This document shows, one piece after another, positions 115-8,379 of a DNA stretch of 11,341 nt. This stretch comes from Clostridia bacterium (GTDB taxonomy: Bacteria > Bacillota > Clostridia > Christensenellales > Borkfalkiaceae). The notes under the pieces were generated by a model. That model was not told where the DNA came from and searched no databases. It was given only the letters and a program-made list of their open reading frames with translations. Position 1 is the stretch's first letter. Every line of letters begins with the position of its first letter. The stretch lies in assembly GCA_029054485.1 (NCBI GenBank), contig JAIDFD010000104.1, positions 1 to 11,341 on the forward strand. The letters are read 5' to 3'. A program made the translations under genes and the position numbers.

Positions 115-1629
115 ATGAAAAGTCAAAGCGTAGTAACAGACCTCAGAAGAAAGGTCTTTACCGAAGTTGCAAGGGTCGCATACGAATCGAACGATGTATC
201 AAGCGATTTAGAGGAAATTCCCTTTTTGATAACTCCGTCCGAGGTGCCCAAGTACCGTGAAAATATTTACCGCGAAAGGCAGATAGCGTCCGAAAGGGTG
301 CGCCTTGCGATGGGGCTTTCGCTTCGCCCCGCAAATAAACCCGTACATATCACTTCGGGCGTGGACAAGAGCACGATTGCCGAAAAATATTACGAACCGC
401 CTCTTATGCAGGTTATTCCCTCCGCGTGCGACAAGTGTCCCGACAACGAGTTTTATGTGACCGACCAGTGCCGCAACTGCGTGGCCCACTCGTGTATAAA
501 AGCCTGCCCCAAGGGTGCGGTTTCAACCGTGGACGGCAGGTCGTATATAGACCAGTCAAAGTGTATAAGGTGCGGCAAGTGTAAAGCCGCCTGCCCATAC
601 GATGCAATCGCCCACCACAAGCGCCCCTGCGCAACGGCGTGCGGCGTAAAGGCGATTTCTTCCGATGAGTACGGCAGGGCGCATATTAATAATGACATTT
701 GCGTTGCGTGCGGTCAGTGTATGTCTGCCTGTCCGTTCGGCGCGATTGCAGACAAGTCGCAGATATTCCAGCTTATTCAGGCTATCAAAAAGGGCGATGA
801 GGTCGTAGCCGCGCTTGCACCCGCGGTAGTGGGACAGTTCGGCACGGACGTCACTTTCGGAAAATTCAAATCAGCGCTTTTGGCGCTCGGCTTTAAGGAC
901 GTTTACGAGGTTGCGGTCGGCGCGGACGTGGGCTGTATCGCCGAGGCGCACCATTACGTCAACGAAGTAACGTCTGGCAAACTGCCCTTTTTGTTTACAA
1001 GCTGTTGCCCCGCGTGGGCGGTGCTTGTCAAAAAGCAGTTCCCCGACCTCGCTTCCGAGGTTTCTCAGGAGCTTACTCCTATGGTCGCGACCGCGCGTTC
1101 GATAAAGGTCAAGCGCCCCAACGCGAGGGTTGTGTTTATAGGACCTTGCGCGGCAAAAAAGCTTGAAGCTTCCAGAAGAACGGTGAGAAGCTACGTTGAC
1201 TTTGTAATAACCTTTGAAGAGCTTGCTGGAATGTTCGATGCCAAGAATATAAAAATTTCGGAAATGGAAGATTTGCCCGTATCCTTAAAAGCTACGGGCG
1301 CGGGCAGGGGTTACGCTTGCTCGGGCGGCGTTGCAAGCGCAATAGAAAAATGTATTAAGGAATACTACCCCGCCGCGGAAGTTAAAATCCAGCATGCGGA
1401 AGGGCTTGCCGAGTGTAAAAAAATGCTGTTCCTGGCAAAGAGCGGAAAGCTCAACGGCTATATGATAGAGGGAATGGGCTGTCCCGGAGGTTGCGTTGCG
1501 GGCGTGGGCACTATAATTCCCCCCGAGCGCGCAAAGGCGGCGGTCGAGCAAATAGTCAAATCGAGCGAGGTTTCCATTCCTTCAAAGGATATGGAAGATT
1601 TAGCGGAAGAACTGACGAGTATGGATTAA
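115..1629 (+). CDS. Monomeric [FeFe] hydrogenase, group B
   Basis: A 504-aa cytoplasmic iron-sulfur hydrogenase that would interconvert protons and H2 with reduced ferredoxin as likely partner. The H-cluster signatures are TSCCPAW (residues 295-301), IGPCAAKK (342-349) and MGCPGGC (454-460). C297, C345, C456 and C460 are the expected cluster ligands and C298 the proton-relay cysteine. The TSCCPAW and GPC forms are those of group B rather than group A enzymes. Before the H domain lie 16 cysteines (C105-C206), including two clear CxxCxxCxxxCP ferredoxin motifs at 150-161 and 196-207, enough for four [4Fe-4S] clusters. I chose ATG 115 because it has GGAGA 5 nt or less upstream; the longer reading from TTG 58 would start inside the promoter. 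The third signature is slightly unusual (GMGC, then AGVG, where EGMACPGGC with following glycines is usual). The physiological role of group B enzymes is poorly defined. No maturation genes (hydE, hydF, hydG) are in the window. Confidence 0.93.
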   Translation: MKSQSVVTDLRRKVFTEVARVAYESNDVSSDLEEIPFLITPSEVPKYRENIYRERQIASERVRLAMGLSLRPANKPVHITSGVDKSTIAEKYYEPPLMQVIPSACDKCPDNEFYVTDQCRNCVAHSCIKACPKGAVSTVDGRSYIDQSKCIRCGKCKAACPYDAIAHHKRPCATACGVKAISSDEYGRAHINNDICVACGQCMSACPFGAIADKSQIFQLIQAIKKGDEVVAALAPAVVGQFGTDVTFGKFKSALLALGFKDVYEVAVGADVGCIAEAHHYVNEVTSGKLPFLFTSCCPAWAVLVKKQFPDLASEVSQELTPMVATARSIKVKRPNARVVFIGPCAAKKLEASRRTVRSYVDFVITFEELAGMFDAKNIKISEMEDLPVSLKATGAGRGYACSGGVASAIEKCIKEYYPAAEVKIQHAEGLAECKKMLFLAKSGKLNGYMIEGMGCPGGCVAGVGTIIPPERAKAAVEQIVKSSEVSIPSKDMEDLAEELTSMD

Positions 1630-1634
1630 TCGAT

Positions 1635-1664
1635 AAGCCCCGCGCGTTTGCCGCGCGGGGCTTT
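1635..1664 (+). terminator. GC-rich hairpin after the hydrogenase gene
   Basis: GCCCCGCGCG (1637-1646) pairs perfectly with CGCGCGGGGC (1652-1661) around a 5-nt loop, and AA/TT extends the stem. It starts 5 nt after the stop codon. Only three T residues follow before an A run, so termination may be partial or may rely on the very stable stem. Confidence 0.65.
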
Positions 1665-1690
1665 AAAAAATAAAAATTTGTCAATATAAT
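1662..1690 (+). promoter_or_regulatory. Promoter of the TrxR-like gene, probably giving a leaderless mRNA
   Basis: A perfect -10 box TATAAT (1685-1690) lies 17 bp after TTTAAA (1662-1667, 4 of 6 matches to the -35 consensus). The ATG at 1696 is the sixth base after the -10 box, where transcription itself should begin. No G-containing ribosome site lies between 1681 and 1695. The -35 box overlaps the T run of the preceding hairpin. Confidence 0.55.
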
Positions 1691-1695
1691 AAATT

Positions 1696-2547
1696 ATGTA
1701 CGATGTAGCTATTATAGGCAGCGGACCCGCAGGGATTTCCGCGGCAATAAACTTAAAAATTTTAAATAAAAATTTCATATGGCTGTCAAGCCGCGCCGTA
1801 TCCAAAAAAGTCGGGCAGGCACCGCTGATTAAAAATTATCCCGGACTTCCGGACGTAACGGGCGGCGAGCTTGCCTGGACTTTTAAAAACCATATCGAGC
1901 GTATGAACATAAAGCTCGAAGAAAAGGTTGTAACCGGCGTGTACGATACGGGCGGCAAATTCACCCTTTTGGCGGGCGAGGAGCAGTACGAGTCAAAAAC
2001 GGTAATTATCTGCTCCGGCACGGAAACGGTGAAATCGCTTGAAGGGGAAGAAAGCTTTGTCGGGCGGGGCGTAAGCTACTGCGCAACCTGCGACGGCTTT
2101 TTATACAGGGATAAGACAATCGCGGTTTTATGCACCGATAAAAAGTTTGAACACGAGGTTGAGTTTTTAGCCGGCCTTTCAAAAAAAGCGTACGTCTTTC
2201 CTATGTATCAGGGCTATGATATTAAGTCTGAAAAAGCCGAAATTCTTTTGAAAAACCCCGTAAAAATCACTGGCGGGCAAAAGATAGAAAAAGTGCATTT
2301 CAAGGGCGGCGAAGTCGCCGTAGACGGGCTGTTTATTTTAAAGGGCGTTATCTCGCCGTCGACCCTCGTTCACGGACTGGAAGCCGAGGGCGGAATTATC
2401 AAGGTCAAGCGTGATTTATCGACCAATATTGCGGGTATTTTTGCCGCAGGCGACTGCACGGGCGCACCCTACCAGTATGCAAAGGCTGTGGGCGAGGGCA
2501 ACGTTGCAGCACATTCCGCGGTTGAGTACCTTGCACAAAACAAATAA
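1696..2547 (+). CDS. Thioredoxin reductase-like flavoprotein, probably ferredoxin-dependent (FFTR-type)
   Basis: A 283-aa FAD-binding disulfide reductase related to TrxB and expected to reduce thioredoxin in the cytoplasm. Visible signatures are the N-terminal FAD dinucleotide fold GSGPAG (8-13), the redox pair CATC (C129, C132) followed by DG, and the C-terminal FAD motif GIFAAGDC (247-254). The NADPH domain is eroded. Where TrxB has GGGDSA, this protein has LCTDKK (145-150), and the HRRxxxR phosphate-binding motif is replaced by AYVFPMYQGYD (165-175). The protein is also 20-30 residues shorter than typical NADPH-TrxR. These losses match the pyridine-nucleotide-independent ferredoxin-dependent flavin thioredoxin reductases known from Clostridium. 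It lies 66 nt after a ferredoxin-linked hydrogenase, which fits ferredoxin as donor. Its N-terminus (MYDVAIIG) matches family starts, so ATG 1696 is probably right although it lacks a ribosome site. Ferredoxin as donor is inference; another flavin reductase role is possible. Confidence 0.85.
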   Translation: MYDVAIIGSGPAGISAAINLKILNKNFIWLSSRAVSKKVGQAPLIKNYPGLPDVTGGELAWTFKNHIERMNIKLEEKVVTGVYDTGGKFTLLAGEEQYESKTVIICSGTETVKSLEGEESFVGRGVSYCATCDGFLYRDKTIAVLCTDKKFEHEVEFLAGLSKKAYVFPMYQGYDIKSEKAEILLKNPVKITGGQKIEKVHFKGGEVAVDGLFILKGVISPSTLVHGLEAEGGIIKVKRDLSTNIAGIFAAGDCTGAPYQYAKAVGEGNVAAHSAVEYLAQNK

Positions 2548-2553
2548 CTTCAG

Positions 2554-2595
2554 GGGCGGGTTTTTTCGTGTTTTGTCGAAAAAACCCGCCCTTTT
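2554..2595 (+). terminator. Intrinsic terminator after the TrxR-like gene
   Basis: A perfect 15-bp stem, GGGCGGGTTTTTTCG (2554-2568) with CGAAAAAACCCGCCC (2577-2591), encloses an 8-nt loop and is followed by TTTT (2592-2595). It starts 7 nt after the stop codon and isolates the redox genes from the prmA operon. Confidence 0.85.
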
Positions 2596-2650: not shown

Positions 2651-3589
2651 ATGAAATTTACCGAACTTACAATACATACCACAAGCGACGGAAGCGAGCT
2701 TGTCGCAGACGTGCTGTGGCGCTATACAAATTACGGCGTGGCAATTTCGGACGTTAAAGACGTAATCGCTTTGCAGAGCAACAAATCTATGTACTGGGAT
2801 TACATTGACGAAAGTCTGAAAGAGGGCGGCGACGTTCTCGTCAAAGCGTTTATCGCTCTGGATGAAACCGAAAAAACCTTGCCCCTTATCCGTGAGGATT
2901 TGGAAGAGCTGATAAAAAACGGCGGAAGCTTTATCAACTTCGGCACCTTTGAAACAACGAGCCGTATAGTCGAGGGCGATGACTGGCTTGAAATCTGGCG
3001 CAAGCATTTCCGCCCCTTACATATAGGCGAAAAAATCGTGGTCTGCCCCGAGTGGATAGAGTACGAAAAAGCAGACGGCGAACAGGTCGTCAAATTAGAT
3101 TCCAATATGGCTTTCGGCACCGGCGAACATGAAACGACTTCTATGTGCTTAAAGCTTTTGCAGGAATATCTGACGCAAAATTCGGTCTGTATAGACGTTG
3201 GTTGCGGCAGCGGAATTTTGGGAATTTCCGCTATTAAACTGGGCGCAAAATTTGCGTACCTTACCGATATAGACGACATTGCGGTAAAGAGCGCAACCCA
3301 CAACGCGCAGATAAACGGCGTAGAGAATAGCGTTCGCGTGGCGCACGCCGACCTTTTGGACGACGCGCAAATTAAGGGTGATATAATGCTCGCAAACATC
3401 ACGGCGGAAATTCTTTGCCGCCTTGCGCCGTCTATACCCAAAAACTTAAACAAGGGCGGCGTGCTTATTTTAAGCGGAATTATTGAACCCCGCCTTGAAA
3501 GCGTGTTAAAGGCTTTTTGTGCGCAGGGACTAACTTTGGACAAACAGATGCACGAGGGCGAGTGGTTTGCCCTGTCTTTTAAACTATGA
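2651..3589 (+). CDS. prmA: Ribosomal protein L11 methyltransferase
   Basis: A 312-aa SAM-dependent methyltransferase expected to methylate ribosomal protein L11 on lysines and its N-terminus. The N-terminal substrate-recognition domain occupies about residues 1-110. The linker carries the family's conserved tryptophans (DWLEIWRKHF, 111-120). The catalytic domain starts with MAFGTGEHETT (153-163), followed by the SAM-binding DVGCGSGIL (182-190) and the LANI motif (247-250). Length is normal for the family. One detail differs from the usual GTGTHxTT: the third position is Glu (GTGEH). It opens an operon, overlaps rsmE by 4 nt (ATGA) and shares its order with the common Clostridia cluster prmA-rsmE-mtaB, although dnaJ, the usual upstream neighbour, is replaced here by the TrxR-like gene. 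Confidence 0.95.
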   Translation: MKFTELTIHTTSDGSELVADVLWRYTNYGVAISDVKDVIALQSNKSMYWDYIDESLKEGGDVLVKAFIALDETEKTLPLIREDLEELIKNGGSFINFGTFETTSRIVEGDDWLEIWRKHFRPLHIGEKIVVCPEWIEYEKADGEQVVKLDSNMAFGTGEHETTSMCLKLLQEYLTQNSVCIDVGCGSGILGISAIKLGAKFAYLTDIDDIAVKSATHNAQINGVENSVRVAHADLLDDAQIKGDIMLANITAEILCRLAPSIPKNLNKGGVLILSGIIEPRLESVLKAFCAQGLTLDKQMHEGEWFALSFKL

Positions 3590-4308
3590 GCGGACGCAGA
3601 AGATTTTTTACCGAAATACAAGAGGGAAGCACCGAAGCCGAAATTTCGGGCGAGGAGTTTATCCACGCAAAGACCGTACAGCGCGTGGAAGAGGGCAGTG
3701 AAATTACCCTGCTCGATGGAAGCGGAAAAGAATACGCCGCGATAGTCACCAAGGTTTCAAAACACAGTCTTACAGCCCATATTACGGGCGAGAGAGAGGG
3801 CGACAAAGAGCCCGAGACTTTTATGTACCTTTTGTGCGGCGCTCTCAAAGGCGACAAAACCGAACTGGTCGTGCAAAAGGCAACCGAGCTTGGCGCGGGC
3901 AAAATAGGCGTTTTTTCGTCCGAATATTGCTCGGCTTATATGAACGAAAACAAGCTTGAACGACTTAACAAAGTCGCGCGCGAGGCTGCTAAGCAGTGTA
4001 TGCGCTCGCGTGCGCCCGAGGTCGTCTACTTTGATAATTTCGCTTCCGCGCTTGAAAGTGCGAATACTTGCGAAAATAAAATTTTTGCCTGCGAATTTGC
4101 AAAAAAGTCGGATATAAATCTTTCAAAAATTAACGGCTCGACTGCAATCGTTGTGGGTAGTGAGGGCGGGTTTTCCGAAAAGGAAGCCGCCGCCGCGCAA
4201 AGTGCGGGGTTTTCGCAGATAACTTTGGGTAAGCGCATACTCCGCGCCGAAACCGCCGCAATCGCTCTTTTATCGCTGGTTGCGTTCGGTTTGGGTGAGC
4301 TTAAATGA
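3586..4308 (+). CDS. rsmE: 16S rRNA (uracil(1498)-N(3))-methyltransferase
   Basis: A 240-aa SPOUT-class methyltransferase that makes m3U1498 in helix 44 of 16S rRNA. The N-terminal PUA-like domain spans about residues 1-70. The SPOUT domain shows the family motifs LKGDKTELVVQKATELG (87-103), REAAKQCMR (132-140), VGSEGGFSEKE (190-200) and the knot element LGKRILRAETA (214-224). The usual GPEGG is GSEGG here. It begins on an ATGA that overlaps the prmA stop, has no strong ribosome site of its own and is therefore probably translationally coupled to prmA. It overlaps mtaB by 4 nt in the same way. Confidence 0.95.
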   Translation: MSGRRRFFTEIQEGSTEAEISGEEFIHAKTVQRVEEGSEITLLDGSGKEYAAIVTKVSKHSLTAHITGEREGDKEPETFMYLLCGALKGDKTELVVQKATELGAGKIGVFSSEYCSAYMNENKLERLNKVAREAAKQCMRSRAPEVVYFDNFASALESANTCENKIFACEFAKKSDINLSKINGSTAIVVGSEGGFSEKEAAAAQSAGFSQITLGKRILRAETAAIALLSLVAFGLGELK

Positions 4309-5519
4309 AAGCGGTAGTTTTTACGCTCGGCTGTAAGGTCAACGAGGTCGAGTCCGCGTCCATAATGTCCGCGCTCGAAGGGTTGGGCTGGGAAGTGAGC
4401 GAAAAGCTGGGCTATGCCGAGGCTTACGTTTTAAATACCTGCGCCGTCACGCGCGAGGCGGAAAAAAAGAGCCGTCAGCTTATAGCAAGGGTAAAGAAAT
4501 TCAACTCGGATGCAAAAATTTTCGTCTGCGGCTGTGCGTCCGAAAAATCCGCGCATAGCTTTGAAGAGCGCGGCGTGACCTTTGTCTGCGGCGCGAGAAA
4601 AAAAGAGCAGGTGGTTGAAGAGTTTTGCCGTCTTTACGGCGGCACGGTGAAAGGTTTGCCCTACCCTAAGCAGGTAAAAAGCCGTGCATTCATCAAAATT
4701 CAGGACGGCTGTAATAACTTTTGTTCCTACTGCATAATACCTTACCTTCGCGGCAGAGAAACCTCGCGCGAGGTGGAAGATATAATTAAAGAGGTAAAAA
4801 CCGTTTCAAGCCCCGAAATCGTCTTGAACGGAATAAACATTTCCGCTTACGAGGGCGGACTTTCAAGACTTATCCGCGCTTTAAGCGGCGTGGATAAAAG
4901 AATACGCTTAGGTTCGTTGGAGTGTTCGGCGGTCACGGAAGAGTTGCTTGAAGCGCTCAAAGGTTTAAAGGACTTTGCGCCCCAGTTTCACCTTTCCTTG
5001 CAGAGCGGAAGCGATGCGGTTTTAAAGTCGATGAACAGGCACTACACCCGCGCGGAATATCTGGATAAATGCGCGATGATTTACTCGGCTTTTCCGTCTG
5101 CGGCAATTACAACGGATATAATAGCTGGGTTTGCAGGCGAAACGGAAGAGGACTTTGAAAAAAGCCTCTCTATTATAGAAGAGGCGGGGTTTGCCCGCGT
5201 TCACGCGTTTGCGTATTCTCCGCGCGAGGGTACGGTTGCGTTTAAAATGAAAGACGTTCCGCCCGAAGTCAAGTCGAAAAGATTGCATATGCTTCTTGCG
5301 GCGGGAAAAGCGGCGGCAGAAAAATTTGCACAAAAGTTTTTAGGAAGCGTGCAGGAAATAATCGCCGAAGAATACTCGGACGGATACACCTGCGGCTATA
5401 CGGGAAACTATATACGCGTTTACGTCAAGGGCAGACTTTGCGCGGGCGAAAAGTACGGTGTGGGATTGACCGGATTATTCAAGGACGGAGTTTTGGCAGA
5501 AATAAATGGGAAAGAGTAA
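4305..5519 (+). CDS. mtaB: tRNA (t6A37) methylthiotransferase MtaB
   Basis: A 404-aa radical-SAM enzyme that converts t6A37 to 2-methylthio-t6A37 in ANN-decoding tRNAs. The N-terminal MTTase domain supplies three cysteines for the auxiliary [4Fe-4S] cluster: C10 (TLGCKVNEVE), C46 (LNTCAVT) and C77 (VCGCAS). The radical-SAM motif CNNFCSYC gives C136, C140 and C143, preceded by IKIQDG and followed by IIPYLRGRETSR, typical of MtaB/MiaB. The last 60 or so residues look like a short TRAM-type RNA-binding domain. Length is slightly below that of many homologues but no domain is missing. It overlaps rsmE by 4 nt and the protease gene by 14 nt. MtaB is preferred over MiaB or RimO because of the NEVE motif and the operon context. 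Confidence 0.94.
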   Translation: MKAVVFTLGCKVNEVESASIMSALEGLGWEVSEKLGYAEAYVLNTCAVTREAEKKSRQLIARVKKFNSDAKIFVCGCASEKSAHSFEERGVTFVCGARKKEQVVEEFCRLYGGTVKGLPYPKQVKSRAFIKIQDGCNNFCSYCIIPYLRGRETSREVEDIIKEVKTVSSPEIVLNGINISAYEGGLSRLIRALSGVDKRIRLGSLECSAVTEELLEALKGLKDFAPQFHLSLQSGSDAVLKSMNRHYTRAEYLDKCAMIYSAFPSAAITTDIIAGFAGETEEDFEKSLSIIEEAGFARVHAFAYSPREGTVAFKMKDVPPEVKSKRLHMLLAAGKAAAEKFAQKFLGSVQEIIAEEYSDGYTCGYTGNYIRVYVKGRLCAGEKYGVGLTGLFKDGVLAEINGKE

Positions 5520-7092
5520 AAGCGCGGTATTGCGTGCCAAAATTATATACTTTTTCAAAGAAACTTTCCGTGCCCGCTCTAAGGCGGAGTACAGGGAGAT
5601 TTTTTCGCGCGGACTGGGCGAAGATACCGCTGGCGTAAGCGGTGCTTTCCCTTGGCTGTACGTCCGCGCCTTTTTTGCTCTGTTAATACTGTTCACCGTA
5701 AATACCTTGATTTTGAGACTGACCGAAAACGAGCTTTACATTCCGTCGGTCACTTTTTTGGGAGGCATAACTTTTACGGTGCCTTTCGTAATTCTTTTAT
5801 ACGAGCTTTACCCCAAGCGAGATATCAGTCTGTTTCTGATTATCGCACTGCTTGTCGGCGGCGGCACCGTTTCGGGCTTGATTTCGCAGATTGTCTACGG
5901 GCTTCTTCCGGTAAAAAACCAGTGGCTTTTCGCAGTGGAAGCCGGCGTTGTGGAAGAGCTTGCAAAGGCTGTTCCCGCAATAGTTATCATTGCGATTTTC
6001 AAGCAAAAAAACCCTTACGCATGCTTTTTGATTGCGGCAACGGTGGGAGCGGGCTTTTCGGTCATAGAGGATATGGGCTATATCTTCTATTACTCTGATA
6101 AATACCTCGCGTTTTACAGCAGTGATATTCAGGCTACCGTTGCGCTTTTTGTTGACAGGGGCTTTTCGTCTTTCTGCACGCACATTCTGTGGACGGGCGC
6201 AATCGGCTGGGCGTACTGCTATATCAAAAATCCCTTCCGCTCGTTCAGCTTTTTCTTTATGATTGCGATAAGCGTGGGTCTGCACGTTTGCTGGGATTTG
6301 CCAATCGATGGTTGGTGGCAGGTGCTGGATATAACCGCGTGCGTTATCGTTGCGGCGAGCATATCTATAACAATCGTGCATCTTTCGCGCGTAAAGACGC
6401 TTTCCGCCGAAATGGATTTGACCGCTTTCAATGAAGATATTATACGCGAAGCAAAGGCAATGGGACAGCGTATGCGCTTTACCAATGCCGCAAATTTAAC
6501 CTTTTGTCTTGCGGCAACCTTTCTTTCTGTACTCGCGTTACTCTTTTGCGCAATGCCGATAGGAATGGATTATAAGCAGGAGAATTTTACAAAGCAGGAG
6601 TTTATCGACTTTTTGCAGGGCGGAAAGCTTTTCAAAGTCAACGAAAACCGACTGTACAACCCCAACGTAAAAAATTACGAAGAGCGGTATGAGGTCGGCG
6701 ACGATGATGAGCTTATTTTGACATATGCAATCCAAATGCAGAAGAGCGGTGCATACGACTACTATTACGGCTATTCGTTTGATAAGGATATAACGCTGGA
6801 TAACATTTGGGTAAACTCTGATATGGACGGCTTAAAGCTTCACCCGCTCAATTACTACGAGTTTGGCAACGACAAAATTGGAGTTTTCGATATATACGGT
6901 GAGGATATACTTTTCTACAACTACAACTCTTCAACCGATACGGTGACTGCCGTTACCACCGCGGAAGAGTTCGAGGGATACGATGCGCTGGTCGCAATCT
7001 GCGCCGCAGGCTGTGCCGTAACGGTGGGATGCACTATAATTTTAATATCGCTCAGAATAAAAATCAGGAGATTGAAAGATGAAAGACTGTAA
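5506..7092 (+). CDS. PrsW-family intramembrane protease with extra extracytoplasmic domain
   Basis: A 528-aa polytopic membrane protein. The core (residues about 50-295) has around eight predicted membrane segments and the PrsW (peptidase M82) signatures: VVEELAKA (E150, E151, K154), GFSVIEDMGY (E188), a conserved histidine in CTHILW (H226) and GLHVCWD (H260, D264). PrsW cleaves membrane-bound anti-sigma factors in B. subtilis; the substrate here is unknown. After a cytoplasmic loop (about 296-328) come two more membrane segments (about 330-351 and 493-516) that enclose a polar, tyrosine- and aspartate-rich domain of about 140 residues, predicted to lie outside the membrane and not recognised by me. 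Its total length far exceeds the roughly 220 residues of classical PrsW. The gene starts 14 nt inside mtaB with only a weak ribosome site, so coupled translation is likely. It interrupts an otherwise familiar mtaB-hit order. No anti-sigma/sigma pair is in the window. Confidence 0.82.
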   Translation: MGKSKSAVLRAKIIYFFKETFRARSKAEYREIFSRGLGEDTAGVSGAFPWLYVRAFFALLILFTVNTLILRLTENELYIPSVTFLGGITFTVPFVILLYELYPKRDISLFLIIALLVGGGTVSGLISQIVYGLLPVKNQWLFAVEAGVVEELAKAVPAIVIIAIFKQKNPYACFLIAATVGAGFSVIEDMGYIFYYSDKYLAFYSSDIQATVALFVDRGFSSFCTHILWTGAIGWAYCYIKNPFRSFSFFFMIAISVGLHVCWDLPIDGWWQVLDITACVIVAASISITIVHLSRVKTLSAEMDLTAFNEDIIREAKAMGQRMRFTNAANLTFCLAATFLSVLALLFCAMPIGMDYKQENFTKQEFIDFLQGGKLFKVNENRLYNPNVKNYEERYEVGDDDELILTYAIQMQKSGAYDYYYGYSFDKDITLDNIWVNSDMDGLKLHPLNYYEFGNDKIGVFDIYGEDILFYNYNSSTDTVTAVTTAEEFEGYDALVAICAAGCAVTVGCTIILISLRIKIRRLKDERL

Positions 7093-7417
7093 CTGCATTT
7101 TTTGCAAAATAATAGACGGAAAAATTCCGTCCGCAAAAGTTTACGAGGATGATAAAATGCTTGTCTTTAAGGACATCGAGCCTAAGGCAAAGGTTCACCT
7201 TCTCGCCATAGGTAAAGACCACTTCAAGCTGTTGTCCGAGATGGATAAAGACAGGGCGGAACTACTTAGCCATATGTTTTCAAAAATTCCGCAGATTGCC
7301 GCGGACAACGGTTGTCAAAACGGTTACCGTCTTGTGATAAATCAGGGCGACGACGCGGGGCAGACGGTATTTCATTTGCATATTCACATACTCGGCGGCG
7401 AGCAACTGCCTTGGTAA
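7079..7417 (+). CDS. HIT-family nucleotide-binding hydrolase (HINT type)
   Basis: A 112-aa histidine-triad protein of the HINT branch, which hydrolyses nucleoside phosphoramidates and adenylates such as AMP-lysine. The signature HLHIHILGG puts the triad at H99, H101 and H103; H101-H103 surround the nucleophile. The N-terminus CIFCKIIDGKIPS (6-18) is the usual HINT start, and NQGDDAGQTVFH (88-99) forms the phosphate-binding part. Length is normal. It overlaps the protease gene by 14 nt and has a good AGGAG (7066-7070) 8 nt before its ATG, so it can initiate independently of the upstream gene. It is the last gene of the operon; the rpsU gene that often follows in Clostridia is absent. Confidence 0.94.
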   Translation: MKDCNCIFCKIIDGKIPSAKVYEDDKMLVFKDIEPKAKVHLLAIGKDHFKLLSEMDKDRAELLSHMFSKIPQIAADNGCQNGYRLVINQGDDAGQTVFHLHIHILGGEQLPW

Positions 7418-7458: not shown

Positions 7459-8379
7459 TTAATATGAAGAGGTGATTTTTTGCGCCGTTTCAATTACCTT
7501 ACGCTTAAGCTCGGGCGGTTCGATTACTTTTACCGCGCCGCCGTAGCTTAAAATTTTGTTGACAAGTCCGCCGTCGTCCGGCAAGGCAAGCCTTGCGATA
7601 AACCCGCCGCCGACAGGCTCGATATTGTCAATTCCAAGCCATTCCTCAGCGTCCGAAAGCGAGCCTTTTTCAATTTCAAGGGTGACGCTTATGAGCTTGT
7701 CCGCAGAAACGTAAAAATCCAAATCTATCTCATCGCGCGTGAACTCGCGCTTACTGAAAACGCTTCCCGTAAAGGCGGCGTTTTTTATTCTGCCTATTTT
7801 AAAGGTGCGGAAGGTCTGCTTGGTGTGGCAGAATGCGTAAACGTACCAGATATTCTGTTTAAAAATAAGAAGGTGGGGGTCGATTACTCTTTTAGAGTGT
7901 TCGCCGCTCCGCGATATGTAATCGATAATAAGCGACTTGCTTTCGTTAACGGCTTGTTCGCAGACCTTCATTTTTTCGGAAAATTTATTTCCGCCCCACC
8001 AGTTGCCGCCGTCTACCAAAATATTTCCGCAAATCGAAAGCTCGCGCTTTTCCGCTTTTTGCCGGCGCTGTAATTTGTCCATTGCGGTGAGTATGCTCTT
8101 GTCGTTCATCTGCGAAGCCATTGCGCCCAGCGCGTTTACGGTTGCCGCGTATTCTTCACGGGTGAAGTAATAGGAGGGCAGGCGGAAGGTATCGGGAATA
8201 GAAATTCCGCCGTATCTGCCGCGCTCCACGTCGACCGGCACGCCGCATACGTTCAGCTCTTCAACGTACCTATAAACGCTTCGCGCCGAAATCTCGTACT
8301 TGTCTGCAAGCTGTCGCGCCGTCATTTTGCGCTTTGACAAAAGGGTCATCATTATATCAATCATTATCTGATATTTCAT
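7459..8379 (-). CDS. HTH-WYL domain transcriptional regulator (YafY type)
   Basis: A 306-aa DNA-binding regulator. The N-terminal winged helix-turn-helix (about residues 5-60) has MTARQLADKYEISARSVYRY (19-38), the usual recognition region, and the wing RGRYGG (53-58). The WYL domain (about 136-205) shows WYVYAFCH (178-185) with FRTFKIGRI (190-198), and a WCX-type C-terminal region covers about 228-305. WYL proteins sense ligands through this domain and often control adjacent genes. The start ATG 8379 has AAGGA 5-6 nt upstream. The gene is transcribed away from a tiny two-cistron unit, and its own -35 box overlaps a TGACA/TGTCA dyad, which suggests autoregulation and control of that unit. The ligand is unknown. 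Confidence 0.9.
   Translation of the reverse strand: MKYQIMIDIMMTLLSKRKMTARQLADKYEISARSVYRYVEELNVCGVPVDVERGRYGGISIPDTFRLPSYYFTREEYAATVNALGAMASQMNDKSILTAMDKLQRRQKAEKRELSICGNILVDGGNWWGGNKFSEKMKVCEQAVNESKSLIIDYISRSGEHSKRVIDPHLLIFKQNIWYVYAFCHTKQTFRTFKIGRIKNAAFTGSVFSKREFTRDEIDLDFYVSADKLISVTLEIEKGSLSDAEEWLGIDNIEPVGGGFIARLALPDDGGLVNKILSYGGAVKVIEPPELKRKVIETAQKITSSY

Follow-up and report, generated by a model that had tools for sequence, protein, structure and literature searches.

The window analyzed here is the whole 11,341-nucleotide (nt) stretch of DNA, bases 1-11341 of contig C7, in a 1.46-Mb clostridial source genome of 297 contigs with an estimated completeness of 97%, and the gene in question lies at positions 1696-2547. 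Sequence, motifs, tree placement and predicted fold agree in supporting its product as a ferredoxin-dependent flavin thioredoxin reductase (FFTR), that is, a pyridine-nucleotide-independent enzyme, as the preliminary description of this DNA had proposed. Taken together, the data favor, at a probability of about 0.85, a clostridial-type FFTR that would run on ferredoxin, a neighboring group B [FeFe] hydrogenase that would be a co-user of the same ferredoxin pool, and an adjacency of the two genes that would be inherited gene order. The gene and the motifs of its product, including those that bind flavin adenine dinucleotide (FAD), are as follows.

1696-2547, + strand: FFTR open reading frame (ORF), 283 amino acids (aa) by translation.
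1717..1734, + strand: N-terminal FAD motif GSGPAG, residues 8-13, seen in the translation; G8, G10 and A12 are invariant in 58 aligned sequences.
2080..2091, + strand: redox-active CATC, residues 129-132; C129 and C132 are invariant in 58 aligned sequences.
2128..2145, + strand: LCTDKK, residues 145-150, in the alignment at the expected place of the NAD(P)H pyrophosphate motif GxGxxA, which is absent.
2437..2463, + strand: C-terminal FAD motif IFAAGDCTG, residues 248-256, seen in the translation; G252 and D253 are invariant in 58 aligned sequences.

The retention of CATC and of both FAD motifs and the loss of the motifs for reduced nicotinamide adenine dinucleotide phosphate (NADPH), both noted earlier, are thus visible in translation and alignment. 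When the protein was aligned to four NADPH-type thioredoxin reductases (NTRs) of the same order, PMYQGYD stood at the position of HRRxxxR. GxGxxA was present in all four NTR rows versus one of the 69 other rows (L126 of genome G055, on a very long branch), and HRRxxxR in three of the four versus none of the 69; this near-absence across the other rows indicates that, as judged from the alignment, the loss is a trait of the whole clade and not a chance gap. The exceptional L126, 285 aa long, is reductase-like, has GNGQYA and CAVC, and sits on a branch of 2.6 changes per column; it is neither clearly an FFTR nor clearly an NTR.

The tree and the structure comparison that had been suggested as checks gave concordant results. 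Sixty-eight rows, including the known FFTRs 6gna and 6gnc, grouped together with a Shimodaira-Hasegawa-like approximate likelihood ratio test (SH-aLRT) support of 99 in a quick tree built without bootstrap, with only four NTR rows and with the long outlier L126 beside the FFTR branch. The predicted fold, modeled from an alignment made up mostly of FFTRs (NTRs were 3 of 58 rows), has a root-mean-square deviation of 1.9 to 6gna over 280 residues and of 10-16 to ordinary NTRs. Furthermore, the protein scored 184 bits against the NTR model TIGR01292, whose cut-off is 343. The reductase most likely uses ferredoxin rather than NADPH, to judge from these likenesses.

The closest known systems are the FFTRs of Clostridium acetobutylicum (PDB 6gna, 6gnc and, with thioredoxin, 6gnd), which share the length, fold, domain arrangement and CATC of the window FFTR, have likewise lost both NAD(P)H motifs, and are 44-47% identical to it; the window protein is thus an additional member of an already known enzyme family. 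TrxB1 and TrxB4 of Clostridioides difficile, likened here by their description in the available portion of PMC10880999, are also FFTRs that lack NAD(P)H motifs and cluster with the clostridial FFTRs. The FFTR of Gloeobacter violaceus (PDB 5j60, 6xtf) is more distant, at 22% identity, and the C-terminal tail with an FAD-stacking tryptophan that the excerpt of PMC12796991 describes for the cyanobacterial type is missing from the window protein, which ends with AVEYLAQNK at residue 283.

No second thioredoxin reductase was found in the source genome, where a search with the FFTR protein at E ≤ 1e-3 gave one match. One match per genome was likewise obtained in 33 of the 34 FFTR-bearing genus genomes of the relatives sample (source genome counted), the remaining genome, G024, having a second one in a 553-aa frame. 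Among 24 genomes of other families, 20 gave matches to the same protein, with E-values between about 1e-15 and 1e-36, so that an NTR would probably have shown up. Of five such matches that were inspected, four carry GxGxxA and the remaining one is the outlier L126. By eye, two further flavoproteins of the source genome look NfnB- or glutamate-synthase-like. The FFTR is therefore probably the only thioredoxin reductase of the organism and of most of its genus. C. difficile, by contrast, has NTRs in addition to its FFTRs, as well as a trxA1-trxB1 operon, and most Negativicutes and Clostridia carry both kinds of reductase, as stated in the part of PMC10880999 seen; an FFTR is the sole reductase in Gloeobacter and Prochlorococcus, according to the same excerpt of PMC12796991.

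The gene that precedes the FFTR gene was assigned to the group B [FeFe] hydrogenases, in agreement with the preliminary description, by the model named in the following line.

115..1629, + strand: group B (B1) monomeric [FeFe] hydrogenase, 504 aa from the ATG at 115; TIGR04105 (FeFe_hydrog_B1), 613 bits, cut-off 450.

The start is most likely this ATG and not the TTG at 58, because GGAG lies upstream of the former. The translation contains TSCCPAW, GPCAAKK and EGMGCPGGC, which we take to be the H-cluster motifs. Although the dnaJ stress-operon gene order is common in Firmicutes, such an operon was not seen 5' of the hydrogenase in eight loci inspected by eye, where the upstream genes vary; at locus L081, the gene upstream of the hydrogenase is Lgt-like but scores below the cut-offs of its models.

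To describe how far the gene pair recurs, two samples of the genus were pooled, giving 46 searched genomes, of which 43 carry an FFTR and three do not (G001, G022 and G028, which are 67-87% complete and gave no match to a thioredoxin reductase of either kind). The FFTR adjoins the hydrogenase in 33 of the 43 FFTR-bearing congeners, always downstream and on the same strand, with a gap of 8-400 nt in 31 pairs and of about 1.2 kb in G006 and G017, where the gap holds an opposite-strand lipoprotein-like ORF (L082, 6962-8050, 362 aa; L258, 160-1191, 343 aa). The recurrence among relatives expected in the preliminary description was therefore seen, but within this genus. Among the FFTR genomes outside it, the two genes were not found as a pair on one contig in the 48 of the order sample (hydrogenase at E ≤ 1e-80 in 30, none in 18), nor as a pair in 77 of the phylum sample, 20 of which have a hydrogenase, the nearest about 10 kb off (G434). 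It should be noted that the FFTR thresholds of E ≤ 1e-40 (order) and 1e-50 (phylum) miss weaker FFTRs, and that the hydrogenase check in the phylum covered 77 of 117 FFTR genomes, plus G363, G087 and G178, with 40 phylum genomes left out.

The 5' side of the FFTR gene in 15 non-genus genomes (0.4-3.3 kb each) held no hydrogenase. A pair hidden by a contig break was ruled out in G542, in which a different short ORF precedes the FFTR gene and a thioredoxin-like ORF comes after it, and in G410, in which the hydrogenase is deep inside its contig and far from the ends; in G363, both genes are near contig ends in an arrangement compatible with the FFTR gene preceding the hydrogenase. Among the best 80 named FFTR-like loci, the least similar of which (about 33% identity) are probably in part NADPH-type relatives, the pair was present in three, all of the same genus and already sampled, whereas a thioredoxin gene lay within 1 kb in 21. 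The gene pair is not reported in the titles or abstract openings of the open-licence literature searched, and the main text of PMC12578642, on a gut hydrogenase of the same TIGR04105 group as the window neighbor, does not use the word thioredoxin and hence describes no such link.

In the quick FFTR tree, the 33 hydrogenase-linked proteins group on a single branch (SH-aLRT 99). The other ten congeners (L093-L101 and L157) carry a different FFTR, 44-53% identical to that of the window, after a glycerol-kinase-like gene, at a distance of 18-91 nt in nine and 816 nt in L094; the glpK identity was confirmed by NCBIfam in the three tested. These ten FFTRs may form a branch of their own, with a support of 74 that is not firm. 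All ten genomes also have the hydrogenase, apart from the FFTR gene, and both FFTR copies occur together in none of the sampled congeners. Seven of the ten glpK genomes were included in the hydrogenase tree and fell into a supported group (96) with four genomes that have the pair. The two quick trees, taken together, suggest an early presence of the hydrogenase-linked FFTR in the genus and, in one lineage, its replacement by a different FFTR. Furthermore, prmA follows the pair in 26 of the 33 loci, and in three of the glpK-FFTR congeners (G012, G018 and G027) prmA comes directly after the hydrogenase with no FFTR gene between them. The adjacency of the pair thus looks like a gene order inherited once within the genus.

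The FFTR gene starts 66 nt past the hydrogenase stop on the same strand, and its description as lying directly after the hydrogenase is accurate as to position; however, a terminator-like hairpin is predicted between the two genes. The following signals were identified around the FFTR gene.

1635..1663, + strand: GC hairpin of 12 pairs in the gap from hydrogenase to FFTR, terminator-like but trailed by only a short T run; the folding energy of 1627-1695 is -25.8 kcal/mol (z -4.7), equaled by none of 200 shuffles.
1662..1690, + strand: promoter-like TTTAAA-17-TATAAT (10 of 12 matches), ending 5 nt before the FFTR ATG, with no Shine-Dalgarno sequence seen.
2552..2593, + strand: terminator-like hairpin 3' of the FFTR gene; for 2545-2650 the folding energy is -38 kcal/mol (z -4.4), again equaled by none of 200 shuffles.

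The first hairpin is not listed by a consensus scan, and the promoter-like sites of the region (7, versus a mean of 4.1 and a standard deviation of 2.4 in shuffles) carry little weight on their own. Across the genus, a hairpin of -14 kcal/mol or lower lies in the first 150 nt past the hydrogenase stop in 25 of the 33 pairs, compared to 0.27 expected from 40 dinucleotide-preserving shuffles per locus. By structure prediction, then, the window lacks the terminator-free interval expected of an operon: a hairpin separates its two genes, as in 25 of the 33 pairs, with no strong hairpin in the other 8. Many of the hairpins have short T runs behind them, and "terminator" is a reading of them. In 13 of the 33 upstream regions, a hexamer matching TATAAT at five or six of its six positions lies no more than 10 nt from the aligned start of the FFTR gene; a simple Shine-Dalgarno pattern is missing from 20 of the 33, as would be expected of a leaderless gene. 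Both counts were made without a control in A+T-rich stretches. The simplest reading of these predicted signals is an FFTR gene with its own promoter and terminator, which would usually be its own transcription unit in the genus. Just ahead of the ATG of prmA (2651), TGATAAAAT is present as well.

In the favored reading, ferredoxin would be reduced most likely by pyruvate:ferredoxin oxidoreductase (PFOR) and would pass two electrons singly to the FAD of the FFTR; the FAD would reduce the CATC disulfide following a domain swing, and the CATC dithiol would reduce thioredoxin. Since the FFTR is probably the sole reductase, thiol reduction would depend on the ferredoxin pool rather than on NADPH. 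The group B hydrogenase would convert reduced ferredoxin from the same pool to H2, so that the two enzymes would share a carrier without forming a dedicated relay.

Several findings weigh against this reading. That ferredoxin is the donor is deduced from homologous enzymes with 44-47% identity. A complete thioredoxin gene was not found in the source genome, in which the sole thioredoxin-family match is a weak one in the 984-aa frame of a long surface-type protein (L009, G000:C277:2408-2593). Loss of thioredoxin as a trait of the organism was set aside, and the missing TrxA is likely an assembly gap among the 297 contigs, because PF00085 is matched in each of the 36 sampled congeners (in 35 of them at E below 1e-23, and in G005 by a short match at 3e-13). 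PFOR is present in the source genome only as sub-cut-off pieces (829 of 911 bits, 471 of 1167 positions); given these pieces and the ferredoxin-reoxidizing habit of group B enzymes, reduced ferredoxin is likely available to the FFTR, with the hydrogenase competing for it. Strong hairpins are absent from 8 of the 33 pairs, including those of G010, the closest relative (86% identical), and of G024, whose gap of 8 nt is operon-like. Finally, the hydrogenase neighbor is kept by all 33 members of the FFTR branch, whereas no prmA was found 3' of the pair in 6 of 32. Of these six stretches, two are short (702 and 1070 nt, with prmA up to 823 nt away elsewhere) and three come from closely related genomes, so that the retention gives a weak hint of selection for the pair.

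The last two points bear on the possibility, unlikely in our estimation, that the enzymes are dedicated partners in which H2 oxidation, or a hydrogenase set point on the ferredoxin pool, feeds or tunes thioredoxin reduction. Such a partnership would account for same-strand neighbors in 33 of 43 genomes and for the pair being kept in G031, G024 and G428 although the 2.4-7.4 kb downstream lacks prmA; in addition, the excerpt of PMC10880999 includes a spore hydrogenase of C. difficile in a possible system for renewing the ferredoxin used by an FFTR. However, the linked FFTRs are one branch in one genus, the pair was unseen in the 48 and 77 FFTR genomes outside it and appears in 3 of the best 80 named loci against 21 with a nearby thioredoxin, hairpins split 25 of 33 pairs, prmA follows 26 of 33 and adjoins the hydrogenase in three congeners, and the ten glpK-linked congeners retain both proteins with the genes apart. 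The functional link drawn from the neighborhood in the preliminary description was accordingly not supported: as evidence of cooperation the neighborhood is weak, because the genes look separately transcribed in most sampled species.

Clostridial thioredoxin was reportedly reduced with H2, hydrogenase and ferredoxin in work from 1983. The earlier suggestion that H2 feeds thiols through ferredoxin runs opposite to what was measured for the group B enzymes of gut Bacteroides, which re-oxidize PFOR-reduced ferredoxin and produce H2 (PMC12578642, in the part available). Competition of hydrogenase and FFTR for ferredoxin is, by analogy with these enzymes, likelier; a supply of electrons from H2 oxidation to thioredoxin is conceivable in principle, but is not what would be assumed by default. 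A different donor, such as flavodoxin or F420, or a thioredoxin-like partner other than TrxA, is rather improbable, since sequence and fold are clearly closest to the C. acetobutylicum FFTRs and PF00085 thioredoxins are found in all 36 sampled congeners. A degenerate NADPH-type reductase, with weak NAD(P)H use or on its way to loss, would fit the common NTR fold and the 31-34% identity to three NTRs of the same order; it is extremely improbable, as the motif loss spans the 68-row branch, no other reductase was detected, and the cysteines and the glycines of the FAD motifs are invariant, which argues for selection as an enzyme.

These results place an FFTR in an uncultured gut genus with no detected NADPH-type reductase, in contrast to the usual presence of both kinds in Negativicutes and Clostridia (PMC10880999, same excerpt), and thiol reduction in this genus would be tied directly to the ferredoxin pool of fermentation. 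It is an unlikely proposition that, in these Candidatus Coproplasma-like gut bacteria, a sole, ferredoxin-fed thioredoxin reductase has stayed next to the group B hydrogenase by virtue of the latter being an overflow valve that limits how far ferredoxin, and hence thioredoxin, can be reduced; if true, a single regulated node would branch into H2 release and thiol reduction. The locus also illustrates that a conserved neighbor pair can mislead: 33 genomes agree, yet they represent one FFTR branch, and hairpins split most of the pairs.

Elsewhere in the window, a regulator at 7459-8379 matched a WYL-type and a few weaker models in a PADLOC scan of three window proteins, with nothing bearing on the FFTR. 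The + strand series that begins with the hydrogenase and the FFTR continues with the genes listed below, and from prmA onward this housekeeping order matches that in relatives.

2651..3589, + strand: prmA, ribosomal protein L11 methyltransferase, which opens the housekeeping run; TIGR00406, 215.7 bits, cut-off 183, and Pfam.
3586-4308, + strand: rsmE, in the run after prmA; Pfam.
4305-5519, + strand: MtaB-like gene, in the same run; Pfam.
5506-7092, + strand: PrsW-type gene, in the same run; Pfam.
7079-7417, + strand: HIT gene, in the same run; Pfam.
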